64,000 bases of DNA from Actinomycetota bacterium (GTDB lineage Bacteria; Actinomycetota; Acidimicrobiia; Acidimicrobiales; RAAP-2), in assembly GCA_021324045.1 (NCBI GenBank), contig JAJPJV010000015.1, forward strand, positions 1 to 64,000. The letters run 5' to 3'. The translations under genes and the position numbers were made by a program. A model generated the notes under the pieces. It saw only the letters and a program-made list of their open reading frames with translations. It was not told the DNA's origin and did not search any database. Shown here piece after piece: positions 35,010 to 54,324 of the stretch (positions are counted from its first letter, which is position 1; every line of letters begins with the position of its first letter).

Positions 35010-37373
35010 ATGCAACCACCATCGACGAGGCGGCCGGTGAGTGTCGCACGCCCGGCATCGATCGGCCACCCGAGCGGGCTCGCACTCCTCGTCGCGGTCA
35101 TCGGAGTGGCTACGGCGGTCGTCTCGGTGACCGGCCAGGGGCCCGGGTCCCGCGCGGGCGTGCTCGCCGGCACGGCGTTGCTCGTGGTTCCGCTCGTGCT
35201 CGCCGGCGTTGCGATCCACCGACCCTCGGCCACCGGTGGGTGGGTGACCATCGTCACTGGCAGCGGACTCCTCGTGGCTGCGTGGGCGACGCGAGTGGCA
35301 ACGGGCGCCTTCGGTCCCGCCGCGCCTGACCACTCGGTTGCCCCCGATGTCCTCGCCGTGGTCGGTGAAGCGTTGTTGATGCTGGGCGCGACGTGGCTCG
35401 TCCGAGTCCCTGGTGAGCGCGCGCTGTTCGACCCGGACCTGGTGATCGATGCAGTGATCGTCGGGCTGGTCGTGTCGAGCGCCGTGTGGGCCTTCGCCAT
35501 CGGAGCCGCCGGGTGGCCCGCTTCGGTGCCGGTGCTGACGCGTGTCGTGGAAGTGGCCGTGCCCGCAGCCGATGCCTACATGGTGGCCGTGATCGGGATG
35601 GGTCTCGGCCGAGCACTCAGGCGGGCGCCAGCGGGCCAGCTCCTGGTCGTTTCGTTCCTGATGCTCCTGGGGGCTGACGTCGTTTCTCTCCTCGACGAGA
35701 TCGGCACGCTGAGGGGCGATCGATTCGTTGCGCTCCCCTATGTGGCTGCCGCCGTCGCACTGGCCCTGGCTGCCGTGCACCCCGGGATGGCAAGGACGCT
35801 TCGCCAGGCTCGCACGATCGGTGCTGGCTCTCCGGGTGGACGCCTGGTGGTCGCAGCCGGTGCGGCCGCAGTGCTCGTGGCGCTGATCGACGTCGACGGC
35901 TCGACGGGCCAACGAGTGGGTGTCGGAGCGATCGCACTCGCCGCGGTCGTGCTGGCCACCTGGAGGGTGGTGCGGGTGCTGCGCTCGAGCGGGAGCACCA
36001 GTGCCAGCCTGGCCCATCTCTCCACCCATGATCCGTTGACCGGCCTACCCAACCGAACGATGCTCGAAGACTGGTTGGCAGCACGAGCCGCGCAAGGACG
36101 GGGAAGGCCCGCGCCGCTTGCGGTCATCTTCTTGGACATCGATCGCTTCAAGCTGGTGAACGACACGCTCGGTTATGCCTACGGGGATCGGCTGCTGGTC
36201 GCGGTCGGTGAGCGGTTGCAAGCCGCGGTCGGCGGGGCGGGCCTCGTGGCACGCATCGGCGGTGATGAGTTCGTCGTGGCGATCTCCAAGGTGAAAAGCG
36301 TCGAGTCCGCACGTCGCGAGGCTGAGCGCCTTCGGGAGTGCCTCCGGCCGCGCTTCGCCCTTGGGGACTCCGAGGTCCTCGTCGTTGCAAGCGCTGGAGT
36401 GGCGATCAGCGAGAGCGCTTCGTGGAATGGCCTCGCTCGCAACGACCGGTCAGCCGGTCCTGCCGAGCTGATCAGCGACGCCGACATGGCCATGAACCGG
36501 GCCAAGGAAGCCGGTGGGGACACCGTGACCGTCTACGACCCGGCGATGCGCGAACGGATCGCGGATCGACTTGCCCTCGAGCACGACCTGCGACGTGCGC
36601 TCGAGCGCGAGGAGTTCGTGGTGATGTACCAGCCCGTTGTTCGGCTTGCCGATTCGGCAACCCCAGTCGTCGGGCTCGAAGCGCTGTTGCGGTGGGACCA
36701 GCCGACGCGGGGCCTGGTTCCCGCGTCGCTCTTCGTTGCCACCGCCGAGGCTGCTGGCCTCATGGTCGAGATCGGCGATTGGGTCATTCGTCACGCCTGC
36801 CGATCGCTGGTCGCGTTGCGTGCCGGCGGTGTGGCTGAGGACGTGTTCGTCTCGGTGAACGTTTCGGCGCTTCAGCTGAGGAGCGACTCGTTGCTCTCGA
36901 GGGTTCGTGGCGCCCTGGCCGAGAGCGGGCTCGATCCACAGTCGCTGTGCATCGAGCTCTCGGAGCCGACCTTGCTGTCCAACCCGGCAGAGGGCGCCGC
37001 CTTGCTCCTGCGCCTGCGGAGCCTGGGCATCCGGGTCGCCATCGACGACTTCGGGACTGGCTACTCGTCCCTTGCCTACCTGCGACAGTTTCCCGTCGAC
37101 TACGTCAAGATCGAACGCAGCTTCGTCCAGGCCCTCACCGCCGGGGATCCTGCAGCCGAGACCTTCGTCGCAGCGATCGCCTCGATGGCCCAAGCGCTCG
37201 ACGCGGTCACCGTCGCCGAAGGCGTCGAGCACGAGCACCAGGAGCGCTTCCTGCGTTCGATCGGCGTCGAGCTTGCCCAGGGATACCGCTACGCACGCGC
37301 CGTTCCCGAAGATGCCGTGCTCGAGACGATCAGGCGCCTTGCGCCGCGCAGAGGGCTTCGCTTGCTGACCTGA
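35010..37373 (+). CDS. Membrane GGDEF-EAL protein (c-di-GMP cyclase/phosphodiesterase)
   Basis: A 787-residue membrane protein. About eight hydrophobic segments fill residues 20-325 with no known sensor domain. The GGDEF domain has an intact active site (RIGGDEF near residue 417) but no RxxD inhibitory site. The EAL domain is also intact: EALLRW near 556, VNVSALQL, IELSEPTLL, DDFGTGYSSL, KIERSF and AEGVE. It could therefore make or break c-di-GMP according to the signal. The ATG follows a consensus-like -10 box by 9 bases. It converges on the GNAT-like gene, with an inverted repeat between the stops. Confidence 0.9.
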   Translation: MQPPSTRRPVSVARPASIGHPSGLALLVAVIGVATAVVSVTGQGPGSRAGVLAGTALLVVPLVLAGVAIHRPSATGGWVTIVTGSGLLVAAWATRVATGAFGPAAPDHSVAPDVLAVVGEALLMLGATWLVRVPGERALFDPDLVIDAVIVGLVVSSAVWAFAIGAAGWPASVPVLTRVVEVAVPAADAYMVAVIGMGLGRALRRAPAGQLLVVSFLMLLGADVVSLLDEIGTLRGDRFVALPYVAAAVALALAAVHPGMARTLRQARTIGAGSPGGRLVVAAGAAAVLVALIDVDGSTGQRVGVGAIALAAVVLATWRVVRVLRSSGSTSASLAHLSTHDPLTGLPNRTMLEDWLAARAAQGRGRPAPLAVIFLDIDRFKLVNDTLGYAYGDRLLVAVGERLQAAVGGAGLVARIGGDEFVVAISKVKSVESARREAERLRECLRPRFALGDSEVLVVASAGVAISESASWNGLARNDRSAGPAELISDADMAMNRAKEAGGDTVTVYDPAMRERIADRLALEHDLRRALEREEFVVMYQPVVRLADSATPVVGLEALLRWDQPTRGLVPASLFVATAEAAGLMVEIGDWVIRHACRSLVALRAGGVAEDVFVSVNVSALQLRSDSLLSRVRGALAESGLDPQSLCIELSEPTLLSNPAEGAALLLRLRSLGIRVAIDDFGTGYSSLAYLRQFPVDYVKIERSFVQALTAGDPAAETFVAAIASMAQALDAVTVAEGVEHEHQERFLRSIGVELAQGYRYARAVPEDAVLETIRRLAPRRGLRLLT

Positions 37374-39616: not shown

Positions 39617-40525
39617 ATGGCGCGCCTGGACCACCCGCCACGATTCGGGAGGGTCATCACAGCCATGGTCACCCCGTTCGACGAGGCCGGTGCGGTCGAC
39701 CTGGATGCAGCCTCCGAGCTCGCTCGTTGGCTGGTCGCGCACGGCAGTGACGGGTTGGTCGTCGCCGGCACCACCGGAGAGGTGCCCGTGCTGAGCGACG
39801 AGGAGCGGATCGAGCTCTGGCGTGCGGTCGCGGAGTCGGTGACGGTGCCGGTGATCGGTGGATCCGGCAGTAACGACACCCGCCATTCCGTCGAGCTCAC
39901 CAAGGCCGCCGCCGCGGCCGGGCTTGCCGGGGTGCTCGTCGTGACGCCCTATTACAACCGGCCTTCGCAACAGGGGATCTTCGAGCACTTCGCGGCGGTT
40001 GCCGCGGCAACGAGCCTCCCGGTCATGTTGTACGACATCCCGGCTCGTACCGGGCGCCGGATCGCCCTCGAGACCTACCGGCGCGTCGTGAGCGAGCTGC
40101 CCAACGTGGTCGCGGTGAAAGACGCAACGGGCGATCCCGCTGGCGCCGCGCGCTTGGCGGCAGCAACGCCAGCGGCCTTCGAGCTCTACAGCGGGGACGA
40201 CGCCTTGACGCTGCCCCTGCTGGCGGTCGGGGCTGTGGGCTTGGTGAGCGTGGCCTCCCATTGGATCGGCAGCGAGCTCGGCGAGACCATCGCTGCGTTC
40301 GTCAAGGGCGATGTCGGTGGTGCGTGCGCGATGAACGCTCGGCTGATCCCTTCCTATGAGTTCGAGTCCACGGAGCAGTTCCCGAACCCGTTGCCTGCGA
40401 AGGCAGTCTGCCGTGCGCTCGGTTTGCGGGTGGGGCAGTGCCGCCTTCCGCTCGGTGCGGCGCCGCCGGAGCTCGACCTGCAGGCCCGGAGGCTCCTCGA
40501 GGAGTTGGGCCGGCCACTTGGCTAG
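39617..40525 (+). CDS. dapA: 4-hydroxy-tetrahydrodipicolinate synthase (DapA)
   Basis: DapA condenses pyruvate and aspartate semialdehyde, the first step of the lysine branch. The 302-residue TIM barrel has AMVTPFDEAGAVD, the GTTGEVPVLSDEER motif, catalytic Tyr in VTPYYNRPSQQG and the Schiff-base lysine in VAVKDATGD. The length is normal. No lysine riboswitch precedes it; the -10 box leaves no room for one. The RNase J frame begins within its last codons. Confidence 0.95.
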   Translation: MARLDHPPRFGRVITAMVTPFDEAGAVDLDAASELARWLVAHGSDGLVVAGTTGEVPVLSDEERIELWRAVAESVTVPVIGGSGSNDTRHSVELTKAAAAAGLAGVLVVTPYYNRPSQQGIFEHFAAVAAATSLPVMLYDIPARTGRRIALETYRRVVSELPNVVAVKDATGDPAGAARLAAATPAAFELYSGDDALTLPLLAVGAVGLVSVASHWIGSELGETIAAFVKGDVGGACAMNARLIPSYEFESTEQFPNPLPAKAVCRALGLRVGQCRLPLGAAPPELDLQARRLLEELGRPLG

Positions 40526-42188
40526 GAGGTCGTTTCCCGTCAGGATCGTCTTCCTCGGCGGGTTGGGCGAGATCGGGCGAAATTGCGCCTGCCTGGAGGT
40601 CGGCAGTCGGATCGTCGTCCTGGACTGCGGGGTCATGTTCCCCGATCCCGACATGCCCGGCGTCGATCTCGTCTTGCCCGACTTCTCCTACCTCCAAGAC
40701 CGTGCCGATCGGGTCGACGCCATCGTGTTGACACACGGTCACGAGGATCACACCGGAGGACTTCCCTACCTGTTGCGGCAGGTGGAAGCGCCGATCTATG
40801 GCTCGGAGCTGACCGTCGGTCTCGCACGCAACCGAGTCGAGGAAGCGGGATTGGGCGACCGAGCACGCTTCGTCGTCGTCGACGACGGTGAACGCCGCAA
40901 CGTCGGTCCCATCGACGTCGAGTTCATCCCGGTGACGCATTCGGTTCCGAATGCCTTCGCGATCGCCTTCCATACCCCCCAAGGCGTCATCTTGCACTCG
41001 GGCGATTTCAAGATCGATCTCCAACCCGTCGATGGCCGGCGGACCGACCTGGCGAGGATGGGGGCGCTGGCGGAGGGTCCTGGCATCGCGCTCCTGCTCT
41101 CGGACTCGACCAATGCCGAAGAACCGGGGTTCACCGCGTCCGAGACAAGCGTCGGGCTCACGTTGCGTCGGCTCTTCGCGTCCAAGCCGGGACGGCGGAT
41201 CATCGTTGCGTGCTTCGCCAGCCATATCCATCGGGTGCAGCAAGTGATCGACGCAGCCGTGGCGAACGGCCGCAAGGTGGCCACGCTGGGTCGCTCAATG
41301 CGGAAGAATGTCGATCTCGCTCGCCAACTCGGCGTGCTCTCGGTTCCCGCGGAGGCGTTGGTCGAGGTCGAGGAGATCGATCGGCTTCCGGCCGGGGAAG
41401 TCTGTGTGATCTCCACTGGCTCTCAGGGCGAACCCATGTCCGCGCTGGCGCTGATGGCCAGCGGAGAGAACCCGCGCCTCCAGGTCAGTCAGGACGACGT
41501 GGTGGTGATCTCCGCACACCCCATTCCCGGCAACGAGTGGTCGGTGGCTCGGGTGATCGACGACCTCCATCGTCGTGGTGCCGAAGTGATCCACGCCAAG
41601 TCGGCCGGCGTGCACGTCAGTGGCCATGCCTGCCAGGGCGAGCTCCAGACGCTCCTGGCGGTCACCAAACCCCGGGCGTTCATCCCCGTGCACGGCGAGT
41701 ACCGGCATCTGGTCCACCACGCCGCACTGGCGCGTGCAATGGGGGTGCCTTCCGACCAGGTCCTGTTGTGCGAGGACGGGGACGCCGTGCGCCTGGACGC
41801 AAGGGGCGTTCGCCGCGACGGCAGCGTGCCCGCGGGATACCTCTACGTGGACGGCACCGTGGGTGACGTCGAGCATGGCGTCCTGCGCGATCGACGACTA
41901 CTTGCCGAGGAGGGGGTGGTCATGGTCGTCGCCACGGTCGACCTACGCCGGGGTCAACTGGTCAGCCCACCCCAGATCGCGACGCGGGGCTGGGTCCATG
42001 CCCCGGAAGCCGAGGCGCTCCTCGGGGAGGCCAGCCAGACGGTGGGCAAGGCCCTCGAGACCGCAATGGCCGACGGTGCTCGTGAGCTCGAGGTCCTCAG
42101 CCGGCACGCTCGCCGATCGCTCGGCCGCTTCGTGGGCGAGCGGACCCGCCGACGCCCGATGGTGATCCCAGTGGTGGTCGGGGTCTGA
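40518..42188 (+). CDS. rnj: Ribonuclease J
   Basis: RNase J is a metallo-beta-lactamase/beta-CASP nuclease with endo- and 5'-exonuclease activity in RNA decay. The 556-residue protein has FLGGLGEIGRNC, LTHGHEDHTGGLPYL, the beta-CASP residues SDSTNAEEPG and SGHACQGELQTLL, and PVHGEYRHL. The TTG used here is the only standard start near, but a very strong AGGAGGT (40524-40530) lies after it. Eight bases beyond that is GTC at 40539, exactly where homologues begin with MRIVFLGG. The neighbour order dapA-rnj is common in actinobacteria. Confidence 0.92.
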   Translation: MARRSFPVRIVFLGGLGEIGRNCACLEVGSRIVVLDCGVMFPDPDMPGVDLVLPDFSYLQDRADRVDAIVLTHGHEDHTGGLPYLLRQVEAPIYGSELTVGLARNRVEEAGLGDRARFVVVDDGERRNVGPIDVEFIPVTHSVPNAFAIAFHTPQGVILHSGDFKIDLQPVDGRRTDLARMGALAEGPGIALLLSDSTNAEEPGFTASETSVGLTLRRLFASKPGRRIIVACFASHIHRVQQVIDAAVANGRKVATLGRSMRKNVDLARQLGVLSVPAEALVEVEEIDRLPAGEVCVISTGSQGEPMSALALMASGENPRLQVSQDDVVVISAHPIPGNEWSVARVIDDLHRRGAEVIHAKSAGVHVSGHACQGELQTLLAVTKPRAFIPVHGEYRHLVHHAALARAMGVPSDQVLLCEDGDAVRLDARGVRRDGSVPAGYLYVDGTVGDVEHGVLRDRRLLAEEGVVMVVATVDLRRGQLVSPPQIATRGWVHAPEAEALLGEASQTVGKALETAMADGARELEVLSRHARRSLGRFVGERTRRRPMVIPVVVGV

Positions 42189-42228
42189 GCCGACGGGCGG
42201 TGGCGAAGCCGGCGATCGCCTCCGGCGC

Positions 42229-44721
42229 TCAGATTCGGGCGAGGTCGATCCCTCCGCGCCACAACATGCGCTCGAGGGAAGCGGCCGGTTGCGGCTTGGC
42301 CAACAAGAACCCCTGCGCTCGCGTGCACCCCAGGTGGATCAGCTCGTCCATGTCCTCTTGGCTCTCGACGCCCTCGGCGACCACGTCGAGCCCGAACGCC
42401 TTGCCCAGGTTGACCAATGACTGCACGATGGCCTGGTCTGCGGGATCCCGGGCGACTCCGATGACGAAGCTCGTGTCGATCTTGAGGGCGTGAATCGGAA
42501 GGCGCTTAAGCTGGCCCATCGAACTGAAGCCCGTGCCGAAATCGTCGAGCGCAAGGCGAACGCCGAGCGCGCGGAACTTTTCGAGGATCTTGAGCGCGCG
42601 GTCGATGTCGCGCATCACCGCATGCTCGGTGATCTCCAGGCACAACGCGCTGCCGGGCAGGCCTGCACGGCGAAGGGCGGAGCTCACGTGCTCGACGATC
42701 CCAGGGCTGGCCAGTTGCGCCGGGGACATGTTCACCCGCACGACGAGGTCACGTGCCGGATAGCGCTCACGCCAGGCAGCCATCTGACGGCAGGCTTCCT
42801 CGAGCACCCAGCGCCCAAGGTCGACGATCAGGCCGCTTTCTTCGGCGACGCCGATGAACTGGTTCGCAGGGATGAGGCCACGCACGGGGGACTCGCACCG
42901 CACGAGGGCCTCGACGCCGAGCATGCGACCATTGGTCAAGTCGAACTCGGGTTGGTAGAAGAGTCGAAGGCCGCCGTGCTCGAGGGCCTCACGCAGCATG
43001 AGCTCGGTATCGGAGCGCTCGTCGACCTCGAGACGGAGCACGTCGTCGAAGATGATCGCCCGGTTCTTCCCCTGGGTCTTCGCGGCATACAAGGCGACAT
43101 CGGCATGGCCGAGCAGCTCCACACCGCTCATCTGCCTCGGCTCGCCGAGCGCGATCCCGATGCTCGCGGTGTGGGTGACGTACTGCCCGTTGACCTCGAC
43201 GGGTTCCTCGACGAGCGCCAGCAGGCGATTGGCCGTTGCCGTTGCGCCGAGCTCGCCCTCGGCTGCGTCCATGACGACGACGAACTCGTCCCCACCCAAG
43301 CGGGCCACGAAATCCGAGGGTCGAACCGACGTCCGCAGGCGGTCGGCGATCGTCACCAGCACGCGGTCACCGGCGATGTGGCCGAGGTAGTCGTTCATGA
43401 ACTTGAAGCGGTCCAGGTCGATGAAGAGCAGCGCGATGCGCTTCGTCCCGTTCCGCAAGCGCTCGTCAATCTCGTTGAGGAGCGCCCGCCGGTTGGCCAA
43501 GCCAGTGAGGTCATCGTGGAGGGCCTGGTAGACGAGGCGGGATTCGGCCTCGACACGCGCGTTCAACTGCACCAGCATCGCGGCGACCGCCTCGAGGGCG
43601 TTGATCTCAGGGGTCGTCCATTGGACGTCGCGAAAGCGCAGGAACCCCAGCGCCCCTTCGGTCACTTCACCGTTGAGCAGTGGCACGGCTGCCCCGCTGA
43701 ACGAGTCGAACCCGGTTCCCGCTTCCAGGCGCTTGACGTAGGCCTCACCCTCCTCGTCGAGGAGGGATCGCTGGGTTGCGAGGGGCTGCTTGAGGTCCTT
43801 GAGGGCACCGAAGATCGGGTCCGCATCGAATGGGACGACGGCCAGAGGGTCAGGATCGGGGATCTCGGTCCTGGGTGGGTAGTCCGCGACGAGGATGCTT
43901 ACTCCGGCAGCGTGGTCGTTTCGCCGCAGGAAGGCGACGTCGGCGGCCAAGAATCGCGCCAACGTCTCGACCGTCCAGTCGAGCGTCTCCTGCAGGGTCG
44001 CCACGTCGGTCCGCATCAATCGGCGCGCGACGTTCACGACGAGCTCATCGAGCCTCCTGCGGTACTCGGGCGAGGACTTCGTCCATGACGACCTCCACAT
44101 CGAGGCGAAGACGCGCATGGCCGTACCCTGCTCGTCGGTCCACTCTGTGTTGCCCCGGCGGGCAACACAGAGTGCTCCCACTGCTCGGCCTGATTCGGCG
44201 AGGATCGGTTCGGCCCATGCGGTCAGCTCCTCGTCGGTCCCCAGCCCCCGCATGAACCCGAACGGACCTTCTCGCTCCATGCGAGCGGAGACGACCTCCG
44301 CCAGACGCTCCGCGGTTGCCTCGGGTGCCTCAACGGCTTGCCAGCGGTACGTCGTTGCAGCGTCTGGAGCTCGATCCGGCCATGGGAGAACGACCACGGC
44401 GACCGTGTGGGGCACGAGCTCCCGCAGGGCCCGCACCAGGTCGTTCGGCTCCTCGGTTCCGTGGCGCATGGGGCCAGCCTCGCCTGCCGGTGGATCCGAG
44501 GCCGCAGGTCCTGCGCTCAGAGAGCTCGAAGGCCCAGCCTGCTCGAGCGTGGCACGGGTCTCGACGGGAGGGAGATGATCCACCGGGTCCTGAACCTTCG
44601 GCCGCCCGGCAGCTGCAGAGATCGCGGTCAAAGCGTTTGCCCTAGCCCCCGACAACCGGCCCCTCGGTGACGGCGCCACCGAGAACGAAGGGACCATCGG
44701 ATTTTCGAGAGGATCGCTCAT
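42229..44721 (-). CDS. GAF-GGDEF-EAL protein (c-di-GMP signalling)
   Basis: A cytoplasmic 830-residue protein. After a variable N terminus, one or two GAF-like sensor modules fill about residues 90-390. The GGDEF domain is active by sequence (ARLGGDEF near 473) and has an RxxD inhibitory site (RPSD five residues before it). The EAL domain is complete: VEALVR near 600, VNMSPAQL, LEITEHAVM, DDFGTGFSSM, KIDTSF and AEGVES. It resembles mycobacterial Rv1354c, which as I recall also lies next to a ThiF/nitroreductase gene. The ATG is uncertain; a GTG eleven codons upstream is possible. Confidence 0.88.
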   Translation of the reverse strand: MSDPLENPMVPSFSVAPSPRGRLSGARANALTAISAAAGRPKVQDPVDHLPPVETRATLEQAGPSSSLSAGPAASDPPAGEAGPMRHGTEEPNDLVRALRELVPHTVAVVVLPWPDRAPDAATTYRWQAVEAPEATAERLAEVVSARMEREGPFGFMRGLGTDEELTAWAEPILAESGRAVGALCVARRGNTEWTDEQGTAMRVFASMWRSSWTKSSPEYRRRLDELVVNVARRLMRTDVATLQETLDWTVETLARFLAADVAFLRRNDHAAGVSILVADYPPRTEIPDPDPLAVVPFDADPIFGALKDLKQPLATQRSLLDEEGEAYVKRLEAGTGFDSFSGAAVPLLNGEVTEGALGFLRFRDVQWTTPEINALEAVAAMLVQLNARVEAESRLVYQALHDDLTGLANRRALLNEIDERLRNGTKRIALLFIDLDRFKFMNDYLGHIAGDRVLVTIADRLRTSVRPSDFVARLGGDEFVVVMDAAEGELGATATANRLLALVEEPVEVNGQYVTHTASIGIALGEPRQMSGVELLGHADVALYAAKTQGKNRAIIFDDVLRLEVDERSDTELMLREALEHGGLRLFYQPEFDLTNGRMLGVEALVRCESPVRGLIPANQFIGVAEESGLIVDLGRWVLEEACRQMAAWRERYPARDLVVRVNMSPAQLASPGIVEHVSSALRRAGLPGSALCLEITEHAVMRDIDRALKILEKFRALGVRLALDDFGTGFSSMGQLKRLPIHALKIDTSFVIGVARDPADQAIVQSLVNLGKAFGLDVVAEGVESQEDMDELIHLGCTRAQGFLLAKPQPAASLERMLWRGGIDLARI

Positions 44722-44771
44722 TCCTGTGTACCGGGCCTGGGTGCCGACGCCCACGCGTCCGCTCGACGCGG

Positions 44772-44794
44772 AGTGTAGGGGTTGCGCAGCGCAA
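44772..44794 (-). promoter_or_regulatory. -10 box and palindromic operator upstream of the GAF-GGDEF-EAL gene
   Basis: On the minus strand TACACT (44777-44772) is a plausible -10 box. Four bases upstream, at 44782-44794, lies the perfect 13-base palindrome TTGCGC-A-GCGCAA. A palindrome in the -10/-35 spacer is a typical repressor position. The regulator is not known. Confidence 0.4.
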
Positions 44795-44899
44795 AATCGT
44801 GGATAGTTTGTGCCGCCCTGCGTCGATCACCGTTGGCGCACAGGAAAATCCCTGGCCAGAGGGCAGTGAGAGGGATCAGGAGCGGCGAGGGCGACCCGC

Positions 44900-47830
44900 T
44901 CAGCGATCACACAGGGTGGTGGTCCGTTGCTCGACCCTGCGGCGGAAGCTTCGAACGGACGGCGGCGGCGTATGGGTGCTCAACCGCAGGACGATCGCCA
45001 GCACGGCGTCGGGGCCCAGTCCGGCCGCTGACCGGAACTGTCGGTCCATCTCGCGGAGCGGCCGAGCGAAGCCTTCTCCGCCGAGCACCACGAAGTCCTC
45101 GTCGTCGAGCGCCCACGCGGACGCGGGGGAGTAGGGCTGGACCGAGAGGTCTGCGCGCTGCGCTTCGATCCAGAGTCGTTCGACAGCCATCCCACCACTG
45201 ACGTAGGAGGCCAGGCGGCTGTCTCGGATCGTCACCACCGCGAGGGCCGAGCACGTGCGGATTGCAGCCTTTGCCCGGTTCGTCAGGAGTCCGCCGCCAT
45301 CCCATTCGGCGAGGAGCTTCATGACCTCCGGTCGGGCGATGATCGAGAGGCTGGCAAGCTCATGAGGGGGCAGCTCGAGCGAGCGGACGTCGATGCCGTC
45401 CTCGAGCGGGTCCCGCCCTGGCCATCGGAGCTCGCGCATCATGGAGCGATGGAGCACCGGGGAGAGGAAGCGGAGGCGATCGGATTCCGCCAGGACGTTC
45501 GCGCATCGATCGAGTTGCTCGCGGTCGGTGATCAGCTGGAGCTGAGCCCCCTCGGCGCTGACCGCGTGCACGAGTCGGCGAACGAGGTCCGGATGAAGCG
45601 GGGACCCGTCGCCATTCTTGCGGTTCGCACCGCGCTCGAGCATGGCGCGATAGAGGGAGGCAAGCTGGCGCTCGTCCGCTCCACCTGCCGAGTAGCGAAG
45701 GACCCCGACGGGACCGTCGGGCCCTTCGGGGAACAGCTCGACGACACCGGGGCGTCCTTGTGCGGCCGCGGCAACCCGGGCATTGAATAGCGCGGCACCG
45801 ATGGCGACGTGGCTCGCCCGATAGTGCACGTCCATGGCGTTCGTTTCTTCGATGTCGAGGTAGACGTACAGCGCTCCGGGACGGAGCTCGAAACGCCATG
45901 GCTGCGCGTTGCCTCCCGATGGGGCGCGGTTAGCGGCATAGGCCACGGCAAGGTCGGGGTGCTCTGGAACCGGCGGTTCCCCTTCCTCGGTTAACACTTG
46001 CTGGGCACGCTGCTCCGAGGGACCCGCGAGCGTGCGATGGGCCAGCGCGGCCGGTGCGGGGTCGTCGCTCTGGGGCGGTGGGGCCATCCCGCTTCCCAAC
46101 AGCTCGTCGAGGTCGATCCGGATCTGTCCGGAAGGCAGGGGCTGGCCGAGGCCGAAGCGTCGGACTGCAGCCGCGACCGTCGCTGCGCCGAGCGTGACGT
46201 CCCCCCCGAGCTGGGGCCAGGTGGAAAGGGTCGCACCGATCTCGAGGAGCGAGGCGGCGCCTCGGGCGGTAGCCTTCTCCGCCCCGACGACCCGCAACAG
46301 GTAGGGGATCGTCTCCTCGATGGTCAGCTTTGCCAACTCTGAGGAGGTCAGCGCGCCGAGCAAGCCGTGGAAGGGTTGGTGCTCGGGCTCAACGTCGTAG
46401 CGCTCCACGTCGAAGAGGCCCCGATCGCTGGTCTCCATGATGACCGGGATCCGGCGCTTCTTCGCTGCCTCTCGCACCAGGAGCTTGACGTCGAAGGAAT
46501 CGCATTCCTCCACGACGAGATCGAGGCCGTCGAGGAAGTCCTCGACGTTGGAGCGATCGACTCCTGCCGGGTACAGCCGAACCGGGAGATAGGGGTCGAT
46601 CTCTGCGATGCGGCGCGCGGCAGCCACGGCCTTGTTGACCCCGAGGTCGAACACTCCGTCGGGGATGCGGTTGAGGTTGGAGAGCTCGATCCGGTCCATA
46701 TCGGCGAGACGCAGCTCTCCGCACAGCCCCTCGAGCGCAAGGGTGTGCGCGATGACGTGGCCGACGCTGAGCCCGACGATACCGATGCGGAGACTGCGGA
46801 ACCGCGCCTGCTCCTCCAGGGTCACCTTGTTCCGGTTGCGGTCGAGGCGGAGACGTTCGAACCCCGTGGGGCCGAGCATCTTGACGAGCGTCGAGCGCCA
46901 CGGGAAGTACACGTACCGGGGCGTTTCTCCTTGAATTTCGTGGCCAATGCGCGGAACGAGGCGCTCGAGCTCCGCACGCTGGTCGGCGAGCCGGTCGATG
47001 ACGACGGTCTGGGGGTCGCTGGAAAGGGTACGGATGATTTGGCGCTGGGCGCGTGTTCGCTCGTCGAGCACGATGCACCGCCAGCTGTTCGAGGCCGGCG
47101 CCGCTGGCGACGACCAACCCGAGGTCGAGCTGTCAAGCTGGGAGCGGAGCTGGTCGGCCTCGATACGCGACCGCCGGGCTTGGTCGGGGTCGCAGAGCTT
47201 CGCTGTTCTGGGCCGGCGGCCCCACATGAGAATGGCCCGGAGCTCATCGGTTGGGAACGGAACGCTCTGGGTGCTGAGTTCGCGAGCACCCGTCGCTGCG
47301 ATGATGGCCCGGTTCCGTTCGTTGACGACTCCGAGCAGCACCTCGGATTCGGTCCAGGCGAGTGCCTGGTGCCAGCAGCGCATGAGCGTTTGCATCACCG
47401 AGTGGAGCCCCGCTCCCTTCTTGCGGCCCCAAGCCCCCTTTCCCTCGATCACCCCGTAGGGGATGTAGCGGGCGACGATCCTCCGGAGTCGATCGATCTC
47501 GGGAGAGCGGGACATCTCTTGGAGGGTCGAAGCTTGATCGACGCTGTCGAGCGGCCCGTGAATTCGGATCCCGGCGACGACGTCGTCGTTTTGGTCCAGA
47601 CCCACAAAGAACATGGACACACCCGAGCCGTCGAGCAACTGGTCGCGGTCGACGATCTCGCCAAACCCGTGCTTCGCGAAGCGCTTGTGGAGCCCATCGA
47701 GGTAGCGGATCCACAGGTCGGGCCGCTCCTGAGGATGGTGTGCTTCGAAGCGAATGCCGGTGCGGTCGTCGAAGAACGCTGCTCCGTAACGAAAGGTGGG
47801 AGTGGGGCGCTTCACTGGGGCAACGGTCAT
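44900..47830 (-). CDS. GNAT / E1-like (ThiF) / nitroreductase three-domain fusion (MoeY-like)
   Basis: A 976-residue protein with three parts. Residues 1-215 look like an N-acyl amino acid synthase-type GNAT domain (FVGLDQNDDVVAGIRIHGPL, ARYIPYGVIEGKGAWG, LLGVVNERNRAIIAATGA). Residues about 340-560 are an E1/ThiF adenylating domain (RIGIVGLSVGHVIAH, ADMDRIELSNLNRI, VVEECDSFDVK) without the zinc CxxC pairs of MoeB. Residues about 630-960 are a nitroreductase domain (APSGGNAQPWRF for FMN). The last two domains match MoeY (Rv1355c) of Mycobacterium; I infer the GNAT part is an extra fusion. Substrate unknown. AAGGA precedes the ATG by 9 bases. Confidence 0.8.
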   Translation of the reverse strand: MTVAPVKRPTPTFRYGAAFFDDRTGIRFEAHHPQERPDLWIRYLDGLHKRFAKHGFGEIVDRDQLLDGSGVSMFFVGLDQNDDVVAGIRIHGPLDSVDQASTLQEMSRSPEIDRLRRIVARYIPYGVIEGKGAWGRKKGAGLHSVMQTLMRCWHQALAWTESEVLLGVVNERNRAIIAATGARELSTQSVPFPTDELRAILMWGRRPRTAKLCDPDQARRSRIEADQLRSQLDSSTSGWSSPAAPASNSWRCIVLDERTRAQRQIIRTLSSDPQTVVIDRLADQRAELERLVPRIGHEIQGETPRYVYFPWRSTLVKMLGPTGFERLRLDRNRNKVTLEEQARFRSLRIGIVGLSVGHVIAHTLALEGLCGELRLADMDRIELSNLNRIPDGVFDLGVNKAVAAARRIAEIDPYLPVRLYPAGVDRSNVEDFLDGLDLVVEECDSFDVKLLVREAAKKRRIPVIMETSDRGLFDVERYDVEPEHQPFHGLLGALTSSELAKLTIEETIPYLLRVVGAEKATARGAASLLEIGATLSTWPQLGGDVTLGAATVAAAVRRFGLGQPLPSGQIRIDLDELLGSGMAPPPQSDDPAPAALAHRTLAGPSEQRAQQVLTEEGEPPVPEHPDLAVAYAANRAPSGGNAQPWRFELRPGALYVYLDIEETNAMDVHYRASHVAIGAALFNARVAAAAQGRPGVVELFPEGPDGPVGVLRYSAGGADERQLASLYRAMLERGANRKNGDGSPLHPDLVRRLVHAVSAEGAQLQLITDREQLDRCANVLAESDRLRFLSPVLHRSMMRELRWPGRDPLEDGIDVRSLELPPHELASLSIIARPEVMKLLAEWDGGGLLTNRAKAAIRTCSALAVVTIRDSRLASYVSGGMAVERLWIEAQRADLSVQPYSPASAWALDDEDFVVLGGEGFARPLREMDRQFRSAAGLGPDAVLAIVLRLSTHTPPPSVRSFRRRVEQRTTTLCDR

Positions 47831-47921
47831 GGCGAGACGGTCCTTCCCTCAGAACGTACGATCCGAACGGGCACGACGACGGAAAGGGGTACGGGGCGCC
47901 CCATGCGCACCCCGACGGTGA

Positions 47922-49661
47922 TCAGTCACTGGCCTCGCAGGGCTCCGGCGTACCGCTGGTCTCGACGTACTGGTTGAGTGCGCTCAAGGTGGCGCGGCTC
48001 GCCGATTCCGTGGGCAAGCCGGTCTGGGCGATCCCGATGAACCGAGGTCCGGAACCGGTTGTGGAGGCCTGTCGCAGAATGACTCGAACCGGGGTGTCGG
48101 CCGAACGATGCAGCGTGCTGACCGAGTCGAGGTAGAGCGGGACCGCTGCCCCGAGATCAGCGACTGCTCTCAGGGTAGCCTCGGCGGAGCCGACGAGTGG
48201 TCCCAGTTCGGATCGCCCACAGCCCACCTTGTCGCCGCGCCGCACGCTGACTGAGGTCGTGCCCGTTTCGGGAACGAACTCGGCGACGAGGAGCGCGATC
48301 CGTTCGTCGCCATCGGACGTCCTGGTGGTGCTCGTGCCGTGGTGGGTTGCGCGTGGCGGGGCGTCATCGGTGTTGGCTTGGGGTTCCGAGCCGGTCTGGC
48401 CGATGGTCAGCACGTCCACCACCGTTCCCTCGAAACCGCGAAGCGCGGCGATCCGGGTTGCCCGTTGTGCCGTGGTGGGATCTGGGTCGAGGACGACCAA
48501 CGTGACCGCGAGCGGGCGAGAACGATCAGGATCCGAACCTGTCAGTCCGACGTTGACCACGCCGGGGAGGAGCCGAAGCTCGAGCTCGAGCTCCCCGAGA
48601 CGGCTCGAAGGCCGATCGAGACCCGCCGTTGTCGTCCCCGCGCTGGCTGCGGAGCTCTCTTCTGGCGTCCCTTGCTCCAACTTCGCTCTGCTGTGGGTCC
48701 GGGCATCGGGCGCCGCGACGTGCTCATCGCGTTGGTGGGAGAGGTCCGCACTCGCCAATCGGAGGAGCTCGACGGGGTCCACGGACTCAGCTGGTACGTC
48801 GGCTGCACCGGCGAACACGCGGATGGCGTGCGAGCGTTGGGCGACGTGGTGGCGTAGGCGATGGACGAACGCCATTGCCGATTCCCGCTGTGCATTGTGC
48901 AAAAGGACCGCGAAGCGGTGGCCATAGATGCGGGTGGCAACGTCGCCGGTGCGGGCAGTCGACCGGATTGCATCGCCTGCCAATCGGGCAAGGGCGCGGT
49001 TGGCAGGATCTGATTCTGCGTCCGTGGAAACGAACTCCACCAGCACAAGGGTGAATATCCAACCGTAACGGCCGCCGCGCGCTGCAGCCGCTCGCAGGGC
49101 CTCGTTGAAGATCGAGAGGGAGGGGAGACCGCTCGCCGGGTCGCGGGTCACCGCATGTCGCCCAACGTGGAGCGACAGAGCGAGCTGGCACAGGTTGGCG
49201 ATGCCGCTGGCCACGGTGCCAGGCACGCTTGCTGGTGTGGTGACCAGTTGGGTCCCCGAGCCGAGGAGCGATGCCGCGTCATGTGCCTCGATCGGACGCC
49301 TCCCGAGCCGGAAGGCTTGTGGACCGAGCGCGTCGTCGTTGACGACAACGGTGGCGTTCGCCAGCGCATAGGCAGACGCCACTTCCTCGAGCGTCTCGTA
49401 GATGGAGTCGATGCCTGATGTCGACTCCGAAAGACGGCGGACCAACGACACGAGAAGCTGAGTCTCGTGGCGCGAGCTGTGATCGGACTCGGCTTCCTCG
49501 GCGACGGGTGGGAACAGGCTTGCAGACCAAGTGCCTGGGATCGGGGGCGCGAAGCCGCCCACATGATCGGAACGCCTGGGGAACCCGTGACCGTTGCTTC
49601 GGCTCAGCCGCGCACCGTGGACCATGCCGTTGCCATGTCCGTTGGAGGGGTTGGGAATCAC
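47922..49661 (-). CDS. Degenerate GGDEF-domain protein with a LeuA-like C-terminal region
   Basis: A 579-residue cytoplasmic protein. A GAF-like region (about 60-160) precedes a GGDEF fold whose active site is lost: RIYGHRF stands where RxGGDEF should be, near residue 238. After a Ser/Thr-rich linker, ELELRLLPGVVNVGL starts a small ACT/BON-like unit. The end (RRGDKVGCGRSELGPLVGSAEATLRAVADL and RATLSALNQY) resembles the allosteric domain of isopropylmalate synthase. It is probably a nucleotide or metabolite sensor, not a cyclase. The start is uncertain: GTG follows a TTGGAT-16-TACAGT promoter, but TTG 49700 and ATG 49625 are in frame. Confidence 0.6.
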   Translation of the reverse strand: MIPNPSNGHGNGMVHGARLSRSNGHGFPRRSDHVGGFAPPIPGTWSASLFPPVAEEAESDHSSRHETQLLVSLVRRLSESTSGIDSIYETLEEVASAYALANATVVVNDDALGPQAFRLGRRPIEAHDAASLLGSGTQLVTTPASVPGTVASGIANLCQLALSLHVGRHAVTRDPASGLPSLSIFNEALRAAAARGGRYGWIFTLVLVEFVSTDAESDPANRALARLAGDAIRSTARTGDVATRIYGHRFAVLLHNAQRESAMAFVHRLRHHVAQRSHAIRVFAGAADVPAESVDPVELLRLASADLSHQRDEHVAAPDARTHSRAKLEQGTPEESSAASAGTTTAGLDRPSSRLGELELELRLLPGVVNVGLTGSDPDRSRPLAVTLVVLDPDPTTAQRATRIAALRGFEGTVVDVLTIGQTGSEPQANTDDAPPRATHHGTSTTRTSDGDERIALLVAEFVPETGTTSVSVRRGDKVGCGRSELGPLVGSAEATLRAVADLGAAVPLYLDSVSTLHRSADTPVRVILRQASTTGSGPRFIGIAQTGLPTESASRATLSALNQYVETSGTPEPCEASD

Positions 49662-49690
49662 ACGGAGATGGTTCTCGCTAATGGGTGCCC

Positions 49691-49718
49691 ACTGTAGCAA
49701 TAACGGTCAGGAATCCAA
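49691..49718 (-). promoter_or_regulatory. Promoter (TTGGAT-16 bp-TACAGT) of the degenerate GGDEF gene
   Basis: On the minus strand TTGGAT, a 16-base spacer and TACAGT form the most complete -35/-10 pair seen in the window. It would start transcription about 20-25 bases before the chosen GTG. Confidence 0.4.
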
Positions 49719-51704
49719 GGATTTTGCTCGGCCTGTTGCTCGGGCACAGCTGGTGACGAGGGTTGTCAAGCGCGCCGTCGTGGTTGCCGGTTGGTAGGAG
49801 CTCCGGGCGAAGAGTCGGCGGTAGAGGGGGAGAAGCTCGGGCCGATGGGTGGCGATCCAGGAGAGGAAGTGTGGCCGGATCCCTGGCCGAAGGTGGAGGG
49901 CGATCGGAGCAACAGAAACGGCTCCCGCCTCGAGGGCGGCTTGCGCCACGGCACGAATCTGTTCGTCGTCATCGGAGAGTCCGGGGATCACGGGTGCGAT
50001 GAGCACTCCGCAGCGGACCCCGGCATCGTTCAACCGGCGTACGGCTTCTATCCGCTTCTCCGGCGGAGGCGTGCCTGGCTCGGTCAGCTTCCAGACCTCC
50101 CGGTCGAGCGTTCCGATGGACAGGTTGAGCCGCACCTCGGTCCTGCTTGCGGCCTCGACGAGGAGCGGCAGGTCTCGAAGGACCAGCGTGGATTTGGTCA
50201 GGATGCTGAAGGGGTTCCGTGCCTCGGCCAAGAGCCTCACGATGCCCCTGGTCAGGTGGTACTTGCCTTCGGCGTGTTGGTAAGGGTCGGTGTTGGTCCC
50301 CATGGCGATGTGGTCGCCGTGCCACTTCGGTGAACGAAGCTCGGCGCGTAGGCGTTCGACGGCGTTGACCTTGACGACGATCTTTCGTTCGAAATCCTCG
50401 CCGATCCCAAGACCCAAGTACTCGTGCGTCGGTCGAGCGAAACAGTTGTGCGAGATGACGCCGTTGGCGACGAAGTCCCCCGTCCCCGTTGTGAGGTCGT
50501 ACATGGGCAGGTCGACGTCGAGTGACTCGATCGAGACCACACGGAGGTTCGCGCCGAGTTCGAGCGTGTCGACGTCAATGGATGGCTCTCGGGCGCTTGC
50601 CGGGTCGATGACGTCGAAGGAGCGAAGCTTGCCCCTCATGTCGCCGCGGAGCGCCACCATCGTGGCATCAGCGGACAGGTGGACCACGGCTTCGGGGCCA
50701 AGGCGGCGCAAGCTGCGCATGATCCCCGCGGGCAGGAGGGGATTGCGGCTCGAGAACCGCAGGACTCCGCCGTCGCCGCATCCATGCGTATCGAAGATGC
50801 CGGCTAAAAAACCCTTGACCCAGGCGTGGGAAGGGACGTGAGATCGCCTGGCCAGCTCCGCTCGTGCCATCGTGACGGTTTGAGGGCAGCCCCTGGGCAC
50901 CGCTCCTCGCTCATGGGCCGGGCAGGGCCGAACGGAGCGGGGCGCAGCGGTGGTAGTGCCCGTCGGGGCGACCGCTTCGCTCGTTCGCGGTGGGCATTCG
51001 CGGTCGACGGTGGTCGCCAAGAAGGGAGCGGTGTCGCCTTGGTCGCTCGGCAGTTGCCTCGAGGACGAGCTCGGACCACCGCTCTGGATCACCCCGCTGA
51101 GGTCGCCACGTCGATACTCGACGCCGCGCCTCGGGGGGCCGGCGAAGCGGCGGAAGCCGATTAGGCGGTCATTGACGCTCAGCAACGGGTGCTGTCTCGG
51201 ACCCAGCGCCACGTGCGCGACCTGCCTCCAGCCCTGGTCACTCAGGAAGCGGTGGTCGCCGCTTGTGATGAGCTCGGTGCCGTCCTCGAGGATCGTGCGG
51301 AACGCGGGCTTGACCGTGGACCATTGGTCGAGGACCGGGGTGATGACGTGGCGCCGCTCGCTGCCGTCCAGGAGCGTCCCGTAGACCAGGTCGCCGATGC
51401 GCACATCGGCGATGGGTTTCCAACGCCCGTCGGCCATCAAGATGGGTGTGTCACCCGCCATGCAGTACGCGCACGCATGGGAACATCCCCGATACGCGTT
51501 GATTGTGTAACGAAACGGCACTCGGCTCGAAGCCGGCACCTTGTTGATGATCGAGCGCGCATTGACGTGGAGGAACTCCAGGCCCCGAAACTCACCCGTT
51601 CCGATGTGACGTTCGACGAGCCATTCATCAGGGAACAGCGTTCCCTCGCTGTCCTCGTCGGCGAGTCGCCATCGGAACCCCGAGGGCCGGCTGGAAGGAC
51701 TCAC
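49707..51704 (-). CDS. Rv2578c-family radical SAM protein, intein-containing precursor
   Basis: The 665-residue precursor has an 80-residue N-extein, a 340-residue intein and a 245-residue C-extein, giving a 325-residue mature protein. The radical SAM [4Fe-4S] motif is split: Cys74 and Cys78 (CSHACAY) lie before the intein, and the third ligand is the first residue after it (CFARPTHEYLG). After the motif come NTDPYQ, LTKSTLVLRDLPLL and IAPVIPGLSDDD, as in spore photoproduct lyase-like proteins. The GTG start follows a perfect TATAAT by 6 bases, and a LexA-type box abuts that -10. DNA-damage induction is therefore expected. The exact reaction is unknown. Confidence 0.9.
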   Translation of the reverse strand: MSPSSRPSGFRWRLADEDSEGTLFPDEWLVERHIGTGEFRGLEFLHVNARSIINKVPASSRVPFRYTINAYRGCSHACAYCMAGDTPILMADGRWKPIADVRIGDLVYGTLLDGSERRHVITPVLDQWSTVKPAFRTILEDGTELITSGDHRFLSDQGWRQVAHVALGPRQHPLLSVNDRLIGFRRFAGPPRRGVEYRRGDLSGVIQSGGPSSSSRQLPSDQGDTAPFLATTVDRECPPRTSEAVAPTGTTTAAPRSVRPCPAHERGAVPRGCPQTVTMARAELARRSHVPSHAWVKGFLAGIFDTHGCGDGGVLRFSSRNPLLPAGIMRSLRRLGPEAVVHLSADATMVALRGDMRGKLRSFDVIDPASAREPSIDVDTLELGANLRVVSIESLDVDLPMYDLTTGTGDFVANGVISHNCFARPTHEYLGLGIGEDFERKIVVKVNAVERLRAELRSPKWHGDHIAMGTNTDPYQHAEGKYHLTRGIVRLLAEARNPFSILTKSTLVLRDLPLLVEAASRTEVRLNLSIGTLDREVWKLTEPGTPPPEKRIEAVRRLNDAGVRCGVLIAPVIPGLSDDDEQIRAVAQAALEAGAVSVAPIALHLRPGIRPHFLSWIATHRPELLPLYRRLFARSSYQPATTTARLTTLVTSCARATGRAKSLDS
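50445..51464 (-). mobile_element. Intein in the radical SAM gene
   Basis: The 340-residue intein starts with CMAGDTPIL (block A, Cys1). It has a TxxH block B (ITSGDHRF), and ends with YDLTTGTGDFVANGVISHN (blocks F and G, penultimate His and terminal Asn), followed by Cys+1. A LAGLIDADG-like motif, FLAGIFDTHG, lies near intein residue 220. No clear second motif is visible and the region before it is low-complexity, so the homing endonuclease may be decayed. The insertion point lies between the second and third cluster cysteines. All splicing residues look intact. Confidence 0.92.
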
Positions 51705-51710
51705 GCACGA

Positions 51711-51732
51711 ATTATAGCGAACATATGTTCGC
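51711..51732 (-). promoter_or_regulatory. LexA (SOS) box abutting a TATAAT -10 box of the radical SAM gene
   Basis: GCGAACATATGTTCGC (51717-51732) is a perfect 16-base palindrome fitting the CGAAC-N4-GTTCG consensus of LexA in Gram-positive and actinobacterial species. The minus-strand TATAAT (51716-51711) touches it directly, so LexA bound here would block RNA polymerase. The nearest plus-strand promoter, for ftsK, is 58 bases away. Confidence 0.8.
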
Positions 51733-51789
51733 ACCCCTGTGGGCTCGACGCGGCCCGTGATGGTCCCCCGATTCCTCCGAGGTCGGCGA

Positions 51790-51795
51790 TAGCGT
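51790..51795 (+). promoter_or_regulatory. -10 box (TAGCGT) for leaderless ftsK
   Basis: TAGCGT ends 9 bases before the ftsK GTG and no ribosome-binding site is seen. Confidence 0.45.
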
Positions 51796-51804
51796 CCACA
51801 TACC

Positions 51805-54324
51805 GTGGTGGCCACCAGGAGCCGAGTGGTTCGAGCGAGATCGCACCCTCGATCGAGGAGGCGGGCGAGGCGTCGGAAGGCGGCGCGGAATCCACCGCGC
51901 CAGGCGCGCCTTGGGGTATGGCTTGGACGCTTGGCCGGGGACCACGGCGCAGATCTATGGGCGATCGGCCTTGGGACTGTCGGTGTCCTGTTGGCCCTCG
52001 CCCTGTACGGCAGCGGCGCCGGGATCGTGGGGACCGAGATCGGCAAGGGACTGGGAGCGGTGGTGGGATGGGCGCGTTACCTGCTCCCGCCGACTTGTGT
52101 GGTCGCTGGCGTAGCCGTAGTGGTCGGTCGCCGGCGACCCGATGCTTGGCGCGCGGCAATGGGTACCGCCGGAGCGCTCCTTTCGATCTGCGGCCTTGCG
52201 GACCTGGCTTCGGGATCACCTGGACTGGGTGCGAGCACGCATCAGTTAGCGGCCGCTGGTGGCTACCTGGGGATCCTCTCGGGCCGTGGATTGCAGCTTG
52301 GGGTCGGGACTGCCGGAGCGGCGGTCCTGCTGGCGGGGCTCCTCGCTGTGGCGCTGGTCGTGTCCACGGGGATCACGCTCCGCACACTCGGGGCGCGCCT
52401 CGCCCTGATCGCCGCCGCCGTCGCCTCCGGAACAGATCGGTTCCGGAGGCTGCTCCGCTCTTTGGTCGTCCGACCGGGTGCCGAAGGCGACAGCTCGAGC
52501 GACGATGCGCAGTTGAGCGCGTCGACCATCGGCGAAGCGTCAGTGCCGGTAGACGATCATCCTCGGGCGTTCCCCGCCGAGGACATCAGCGCGCGCACCC
52601 CTGCAGCGGATTCCATGGAGGCCATCGAGGCCGAGGGGAATCAGCCAGCAGCCGACGAGGACGGCATCGCCCGATCCGTGAAAGCCCCGACGATCGAACG
52701 CCCTCGTCGCCCGGCTCCGGGGAACTGGCGGCTTCCGCCAGCCACGCTGCTCTCGCGCTCGAGGGCTCAGCGGTTCGACGAGCGTCAGCTCGAAGCGACG
52801 GGCCGGGCATTGCTCGCGGCGCTTGCAGCACACGGTGTCGAGACAAGGCTCTTGGGGTTCACCGTAGGACCCACGGTCACTCGCTTCGAGCTTGAGCTCG
52901 CCTCGGGCGTCAAGGTCAGCCGGGTGACGAGCCTGTCTCGGGACATTGCCTATGCAATGGCTTCTCCCGACGTCCGGATCCTTGCCCCAATCCCTGGAAT
53001 GTCAGCAATCGGCGTCGAGGTTCCCAACCGTTCGCGCCAACTCGTGTGCCTGGGCGACATTCTCGCATCAGAGGAGGCGAAGCGATCGACTCATCCGCTC
53101 GAGGTCGCCTTGGGAAAGGACATTTCGGGTCGACCGGTGATGGTGAACCTCGCGGAGATGCCTCACGTGCTCATCTCGGGGGCGACCGGAGCGGGGAAGT
53201 CCTCGTGCATCAACTCGCTCATCACCTCCGTGCTGATGCGCGCCACCCCTGACGACGTCCGGCTCATCCTCGTGGACCCAAAGCGCGTGGAGCTCGGTCA
53301 GTACAACGGTCTGCCCCATCTCCTCACCGAAGTCGTGGTCGACCCCAAACGCGCGGCGAACGCGCTGGCGTGGGCGGTGAAGGAGATGGAACGTCGCTAC
53401 GACCTTCTGGCTGAGTTCGGCATGCGCGACATCACCAGTTACAACGAAGCAGTCGACCGAGGCGAGCTGAATCCAGGCCACGATGATGCAGCCGAGACCA
53501 GGCGACGGATTGCAGCGGTTGCCGATCGAGCGCGGGCGAGAGCTGCCGAGCATCGTGCCAGTGGTAGGGACTGCTCGGATGAAGACCGTGCAGTCGATGT
53601 GGTACCGGCGGTCCCTGTTCCCGATGAGCAGGCGCCGACAGCCGAGCGGCTGCCTTTCGTCCTGGTCGTGGTCGACGAGCTGAACGATTTGATGATGGTG
53701 GCGGCCCGAGACGTCGAGGAGTCGGTCGTCAGGATCGCCCAGATGGCGAGAGCCGTCGGAATCCACCTCGTGTTGGCCACCCAGCGCCCCTCTGTCGACG
53801 TCATCACCGGATTGATCAAGGCGAACATTCCCAGTCGGATGGCCTTCTCGGTGTCTTCGCTTGCCGACAGTCGCGTGATCCTGGATCAACCTGGAGCCGA
53901 ACGCCTGATCGGTAAGGGAGACATGCTGCTCCTCACCTCCTCCTCCAACATTCCTCGACGGATCCAGGCACCATGGGTGTCGGAGTCCGAAGTGCGCCGC
54001 GTGGTCGCGCACTGGCGTCGGCAGGGGGGTGTGACCGAACCAGTCGTTGCCGTCAGTGACCTCGACGACCGCAAGTCCGGACGGGGCGCAAGCCTTGACG
54101 ACGATGACGATGAGCTCCTCGAAGCTGCGCTGGAGCTAGTAGTGCGTTCGCAGTTGGGATCGACGTCGATGCTCCAGCGCAAGCTCCGCGTCGGCTTTGC
54201 ACGGGCGGGCCGGCTGATGGACCTACTGGAGCGCCGGGGCGTCGTCGGGCCCTCGGAGGGCTCGAAGGCACGAGCGGTCCTCATGACGCCCGAGGAGCTC
54301 TCGGAGATGAGTGCCAAGTCATAG
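51805..54324 (+). CDS. ftsK: DNA translocase FtsK/SpoIIIE
   Basis: FtsK pumps DNA through the division septum and activates Xer recombination. The 839-residue protein has a basic N terminus and four membrane helices (about residues 50-190). An acidic linker follows, then the motor domain with Walker A SGATGAGKSS near 455 and Walker B VLVVVDELNDLMM near 620; most homologues read DELADLMM. Between the Walker motifs an extra charged stretch of roughly 60 residues (from about 555) is inserted. The C-terminal gamma winged helix (STSMLQRKLRVGFARAGRLMD) is present. xerC lies 40 kb away in the same window. Confidence 0.93.
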   Translation: MVATRSRVVRARSHPRSRRRARRRKAARNPPRQARLGVWLGRLAGDHGADLWAIGLGTVGVLLALALYGSGAGIVGTEIGKGLGAVVGWARYLLPPTCVVAGVAVVVGRRRPDAWRAAMGTAGALLSICGLADLASGSPGLGASTHQLAAAGGYLGILSGRGLQLGVGTAGAAVLLAGLLAVALVVSTGITLRTLGARLALIAAAVASGTDRFRRLLRSLVVRPGAEGDSSSDDAQLSASTIGEASVPVDDHPRAFPAEDISARTPAADSMEAIEAEGNQPAADEDGIARSVKAPTIERPRRPAPGNWRLPPATLLSRSRAQRFDERQLEATGRALLAALAAHGVETRLLGFTVGPTVTRFELELASGVKVSRVTSLSRDIAYAMASPDVRILAPIPGMSAIGVEVPNRSRQLVCLGDILASEEAKRSTHPLEVALGKDISGRPVMVNLAEMPHVLISGATGAGKSSCINSLITSVLMRATPDDVRLILVDPKRVELGQYNGLPHLLTEVVVDPKRAANALAWAVKEMERRYDLLAEFGMRDITSYNEAVDRGELNPGHDDAAETRRRIAAVADRARARAAEHRASGRDCSDEDRAVDVVPAVPVPDEQAPTAERLPFVLVVVDELNDLMMVAARDVEESVVRIAQMARAVGIHLVLATQRPSVDVITGLIKANIPSRMAFSVSSLADSRVILDQPGAERLIGKGDMLLLTSSSNIPRRIQAPWVSESEVRRVVAHWRRQGGVTEPVVAVSDLDDRKSGRGASLDDDDDELLEAALELVVRSQLGSTSMLQRKLRVGFARAGRLMDLLERRGVVGPSEGSKARAVLMTPEELSEMSAKS

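Follow-up and report, generated by a model that had tools for sequence, protein, structure and literature searches.

A fused TrzA-TrzS-type gene, probably encoding a single-chain N-acyl oxazolone synthase, and its conserved association with c-di-GMP genes in actinobacteria

The gene considered in this study occupies positions 44900-47830 (minus strand) of the window, by which I mean the whole stretch of 64,000 nucleotides that was analysed. It begins with ATG and encodes 976 amino acids without an internal stop. This is not a chance open reading frame, because full-length homologues (44-55% identity) occur in dozens of genomes and because AlphaFold2 gives a confident model of the protein, with a mean pLDDT of 85.5 and low values at the N-terminus, in a linker (residues 233-245), at the junction of the ThiF and flavin domains (residues 581-616), and in two short loops.

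A first-pass annotation, made from the DNA alone, saw three modules in this one chain, and all three hold up: an acyltransferase-type N-terminus, a ThiF/E1 domain, and a flavin domain. The ThiF/E1 adenylating cyclase domain (residues 321-585; 46076-46870, minus strand) matches Pfam PF00899 with an E-value of 8e-25. The E1 fold that had been expected of it is present in the predicted structure, which resembles AclA (9egb, Z of 24.7; the second-best structural match, for which no paper was found in the literature) and E. coli ThiF (Z about 22.5). Two features of the ThiF part noted at first reading were found again in the sequence: its glycine loop reads GLSVGH, and the zinc cysteines of MoeB are missing, since there is no CxxC zinc site and no cysteine besides C370 and C443. 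The Acg-type flavin-dependent oxidase (FDO) domain (residues 622-975; 44906-45967, minus strand) matches Acg of Mycobacterium smegmatis (2ymv) with a Z of 31.6 over 301 residues and NCBIfam NF047509 with an E-value of 2e-39; its match to the Pfam nitroreductase family falls marginally under the cut-off. A ThiF domain followed by an FDO domain in one chain is the arrangement found in TrzS (Rv1355c family), and residues 246-970 score 872 bits against the model of that family (NCBIfam NF005901), where 476 is the cut-off. The earlier calculation that the protein is the sum of a GNAT part and the length of MoeY is sound.

The N-terminal domain (residues 1-232; 47135-47830, minus strand), a TrzA-like N-acyltransferase domain as judged by tblastn matches and alignment to separate genes in the trzA position, is harder to place. 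Residues 1-230 have no match in Pfam and no sequence match in the PDB, even in a profile search. The Pfam family Acetyltransf_1 gave a weak match (E-value 0.009) in only two of 28 family members, and a profile comparison with a Streptomyces GNAT encoded beside a ThiF gene yielded nothing significant. The order of helices and strands in the predicted model is compatible with a GNAT fold. The same domain is found as a separate gene at the trzS loci of family f57 (E-values from 1e-18 to 1e-28 by tblastn), probably the Mycobacteriaceae, judging from matches to named Mycolicibacterium, Rhodococcus and Nocardia. There the gene often immediately precedes trzS in the same orientation, which is the published position of trzA, and homology to TrzA is judged here against genes in this position. 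The domain has apparently been split off in Jiangella and Phytoactinopolyspora as well, since the joint match crosses stops. Acidimicrobiaceae and Nitriliruptoria-like genomes (L100, L102, L150, L155, L156) carry the fused form.

The chemistry of the split system is known. Rv1356c and Rv1355c are TrzA and TrzS, the enzymes of N-acyl tryptazolone synthesis (PMC12856293, December 2025), so the first-pass description of Rv1355c as a protein of unknown function is outdated, and the idea of a new kind of enzyme was dropped for the same reason. TrzA acylates L-tryptophan with acyl-CoA as the donor, and TrzS carries out an ATP-dependent cyclisation and then an O2-dependent desaturation to N-acyl tryptazolone, in obligate order (PMC12856293). 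The closest solved homologue of the TrzS flavin domain reported by those authors, Acg 2ymv (PMC12856293), is also the top match found here.

Three residues of M. smegmatis TrzS, 323 and 111 positions apart, were mutated in the published work: D217, R540 and Q651 (PMC12856293). All three have counterparts in the 976-residue protein, namely D444 for the catalytic D217 (codon at 46499-46501), R787 for R540 (45470-45472) and Q898 for Q651 (45137-45139), all on the minus strand. These were assigned from their spacing in aligned relatives (322-323 and 111), from among the conserved candidates tried. A search of genomes for M. smegmatis TrzS itself by its residue numbers gave no exact match. Across 42 homologues D444 and R787 never vary, and the position of Q898 is taken by His or Arg in some relatives. 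Given the score in the Rv1355c family, the retention of the TrzS residues, and the homology of the N-terminus to genes in the trzA position of split systems, the protein is a natural TrzA-TrzS fusion, probably a single-chain N-acyl oxazolone synthase that would acylate, cyclise and desaturate.

The gene does not stand alone. It is followed on the same strand by a partner gene (42229-44754) encoding a GAF-GGDEF-EAL protein, in which the GGDEF motif, the RxxD I-site and the EAL motifs are intact, and it is preceded, again on the same strand, by a gene (47922-49700) for a degenerate GGDEF protein fused to a domain resembling the regulatory domain of LeuA. In this third member of the cassette inspection of motifs shows YGHRF (48912-48926, minus strand) in place of GGDEF, with loss of the cyclase site; the motif is intact in 47 of 62 related loci. 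Its C-terminal domain (47943-48305, minus strand) is modelled with the amino-acid-binding regulatory fold of LeuA and citramalate synthase (3f6h, Z of 10.3 over 116 residues; 3fig, E-value 6e-5). In most relatives the two genes after the partner encode instead a GGDEF protein with an intact motif and a separate protein of about 200 amino acids. This free-standing homologue of the LeuA-like domain matches no Pfam family above the cut-off (LeuA_dimer comes nearest, with an E-value of 9e-4). In other families of the order (L158-L160) the pair of GGDEF and LeuA-like genes turns up unaccompanied by trzAS and is therefore a more general module. At two of these loci (L158 and L159) it adjoins HD-domain genes, possibly HD-GYP, and L158 also encodes a related-looking small protein at 10595-11296.

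The surroundings hold other genes. A radical SAM gene (49707-52046, minus strand; Pfam Radical_SAM) stops 7 bp short of where the first cassette gene begins and carries an intein within the region of its iron-sulfur cysteine motif (Intein_splicing and Hint both fall below the cut-off). A second GGDEF-EAL gene lies at 36585-37298 on the plus strand, and a homologue is retained at a comparable distance (8-9 kb) in the nearest relatives (L037, L048, L057). Within 39617-54324, dapA-rnj and ftsK flank the cassette and the radical SAM gene, an arrangement limited to the window group, the cassette lying elsewhere in other Acidimicrobiaceae.

The first-pass annotation likened the locus to Rv1354c-Rv1355c, and had set recurrent linkage to GGDEF-EAL genes beforehand as the test of its reading. 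The comparison proved apt: an Rv1355c-family synthase beside a GAF-GGDEF-EAL gene is a pattern found across actinobacteria. I surveyed 98 trzS loci (94 distinct, four contigs having been counted twice). An EAL domain is encoded no more than 4.2 kb from trzS in 87 of the 98, on the same strand in 86 and downstream in 79. Where at least 4.5 kb is available on both sides, the partner lies within 4.2 kb in 63 of 67 loci. In two of the four exceptions it lies farther off (6.2 and 6.8 kb) and comes immediately after trzA; the other two are plasmid-borne copies of trzS without a partner. One of these (L171, from Mycolicibacterium) has neither trzA nor a GGDEF-EAL gene alongside, and in the other (L172, from Rhodococcus qingshengii) trzA runs opposite to trzS and a GGDEF-only gene is present. 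Seven loci are truncated by the end of the contig, and in these the start of the partner is visible in four and most of it in one. The genomes in question contain from one to 21 EAL genes, and in two genomes of 5.5-6 Mb the single one is beside trzS. By a simple estimate, the chance of an EAL gene falling that close to a random gene would be roughly 0.2 to a few percent.

The linkage extends over Acidimicrobiaceae, Jiangellaceae, Nitriliruptoria-like genomes and Mycobacteriales. A contig titled Candidatus Saccharibacteria (L051) is the same as one from the family of the window (G403, L152) and probably represents a mislabelled or contaminated assembly, and four contigs titled Acidobacteria (L074, L077, L090, L093) may be similar cases.

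The partner is also a particular enzyme. When 92 GGDEF-EAL sequences were placed in a tree, a single clade (support 99/93) took in 38 of 39 representative partners. Its eight other members are two copies adjacent to trzA, one duplicate, and five mycobacterial paralogues away from trzAS. The motifs are well kept in partners: GGDEF-like in 84 of 86, the RxxD I-site in 73 and DDFGxG in 85. In 61 genomes from the family and order of the window, a gene or fragment of the partner type (at least 700 bits; the next best protein scores 384) is present in all 12 with trzAS and in only one of the 49 without (Fisher p of 7e-12, a value that overstates independence, since the genomes are related). The gene in the single exception is 64% complete. 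Genome G019 has its partner and its trzAS on different contigs.

It might be supposed that the protein is indeed an oxazolone synthase and that the c-di-GMP genes are mere passengers, an old neighbourhood without functional coupling. Near neighbours may persist by descent, some copies of trzS have no partner, and the mycobacterial paralogues of the same clade lie away from trzAS. The plasmid copies (L171, L172) and G019, with its separated partner, do count against coupling, and neighbourhood is not proof of control. However, the partner has been kept through differing gene order (downstream in most loci, upstream in Nitriliruptoria-like ones), at differing sites, and in both fused and split forms, and it is missing from 48 of the 49 genomes without trzAS. 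Only the window and its nearest relatives have the cassette between rnj and ftsK; in other lineages it lies at other sites, and partner and synthase have therefore moved together. On this evidence I regard the passenger explanation as rather unlikely. The genomics supports a coupling of oxazolone synthesis with c-di-GMP, for which possible directions and mechanisms are taken up below.

Experiments on relatives touch on the same question. Rv1354c was shown in vitro to be bifunctional, synthesising c-di-GMP as well as breaking it down (PMC2994820). The sole expression data found come from BCG without the adjacent phosphodiesterase gene, where the trzA transcript is up about two-fold (PMC6005825, PMC11126594). 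I rejected this rise as evidence of c-di-GMP control, since the genes flanking the deletion on both sides rise as well, and a local effect of the deletion accounts for it equally well.

As to the enzyme itself, homology and the conserved residues suggest the following course, with acylation, ring closure and desaturation in one chain. The N-terminal TrzA-like domain would acylate an amino acid. The ThiF domain would then adenylate the carboxylate with ATP, whereupon the amide oxygen would close the ring with loss of AMP, and the Acg-type flavin domain would desaturate the ring product with O2. All three steps of N-acyl oxazolone synthesis would then probably be performed by a single polypeptide. 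N-acyl oxazolones, small cyclic compounds built from a fatty acyl chain and an amino acid, are lipids of a class known from M. tuberculosis. Homology to TrzA-TrzS agrees with the product class first proposed for the locus, a modified acyl-amino acid. It does not agree with the reductase activity proposed for the flavin domain, which is expected to oxidise instead.

The final product could conceivably be a ring-opened N-acyl dehydroamino acid, formed when water attacks a short-lived cyclic intermediate. The clusters for thalassotalic/kyonggic acid and stieleriacine, which encode the same three activities, give dehydro-N-acyl tyrosines, no oxazolone having been seen to date (PMC12479983), and oxazolones are readily hydrolysed in acid. 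But TrzS, the closest characterised relative, gives the ring both in vitro and in gently quenched cells (PMC12856293), and an open final product is improbable here. That the protein is an E1-like enzyme acting on a protein modifier or in the molybdopterin pathway, as the old MoeY/MoeB annotation would have it, is suggested by the ThiF/MoeB fold but scarcely credible, as neither a protein-conjugation nor a molybdopterin role fits the scores and motifs: all MoeB and ThiF equivalog scores are far below their cut-offs (MoeB 52 bits of 266) and that of Rv1355c far above, the CxxC zinc site is missing, acyltransferase and flavin domains are fused to the E1 part, and TyzB, the related MoeW, has been shown to be an oxazolone cyclase (PMC10404671).

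Taking synthase and neighbourhood together, it is quite likely that the fused gene encodes a single-chain N-acyl oxazolone synthase within a conserved cassette, most probably kept together because the making of the oxazolone and the local turnover of c-di-GMP are parts of a single circuit. The cassette brings together the synthase, a specific bifunctional c-di-GMP synthase/phosphodiesterase, a further GGDEF gene and a domain like the regulatory one of LeuA. Either the pathway would be controlled by c-di-GMP, or its product or precursor would be sensed by the GAF or the LeuA-like domain. A LeuA-like domain on a GGDEF protein would be a natural place to sense an amino acid or an acyl-amino acid. 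A bolder version, in which the cassette is a self-contained signalling circuit, in which the GAF or the LeuA-like domain binds the N-acyl oxazolone, or else the N-acyl amino acid from which it is made, I put forward only tentatively and think somewhat doubtful. If it is true, c-di-GMP levels in several actinobacterial classes would depend on a lipid that acts like an autoinducer.

The chemistry was known before, as was the fact that c-di-GMP genes adjoin the locus in M. tuberculosis. The discoverers of the tryptazolone pathway regard the physiological role of oxazolones as an important question still to be solved, and note only in passing that one locus has c-di-GMP neighbours (PMC12856293). 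No earlier description was found in the literature of the single-chain TrzAS form, of how widespread and how specific the partnership with the c-di-GMP enzyme is, or of the LeuA-like component. The link to c-di-GMP is now general, specific and testable: one orthologous enzyme goes with TrzAS in no fewer than four groups of actinobacteria and, in the order of the window, is almost never found without it. The partnership thus offers a testable lead on why bacteria make oxazolones, and the fused form would allow the whole pathway to be assayed at once in one polypeptide.

Among known systems the nearest is TrzA-TrzS (Rv1356c-Rv1355c; PMC12856293), which shares with the window a ThiF-FDO protein of the Rv1355c family, the three tested residues, a TrzA-like acyltransferase and a c-di-GMP neighbour (Rv1354c). 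It differs in that the acyltransferase of the window is fused N-terminally, the organism lies outside the mycolic-acid bacteria, and there is an extra gene of the degenerate-GGDEF/LeuA-like type. The partner of the window has the GAF-GGDEF-EAL architecture common to Rv1354c and MSDGC-1 type enzymes. OxzA-OxzB of Pseudoalteromonas rubra and TyzACB of M. tuberculosis, systems of tyrazolone synthesis (PMC10404671), have the same three activities but split in two or three genes, with a ThiF domain in another similarity subcluster (PMC12856293).

The same order of acyltransferase, ThiF and FDO in one chain is found in PRK14852 (NF011425), for example in a 974-residue protein of Nitratidesulfovibrio, for which type of triple fusion no published function was found in the literature. 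Its N-terminal domain, however, is a FeeM N-acyl amino acid synthase (PF21926, E-value 5e-44) with no detectable similarity to the TrzA type. The protein of the window scores 92 bits against NF011425, where 1337 is required, and has no FeeM match in its N-terminus; the FeeM triple fusion was rejected as a close relative of that part. On Nitratidesulfovibrio plasmids the FeeM-ThiF-FDO fusion (L175:6147-9071) lies near PEP-CTERM/exopolysaccharide genes and a gene for PilZ, a c-di-GMP receptor family. The Nitratidesulfovibrio fusion probably arose independently, and such a repeated joining of the three activities, in two separate events, supports the view that they belong to one shared pathway.
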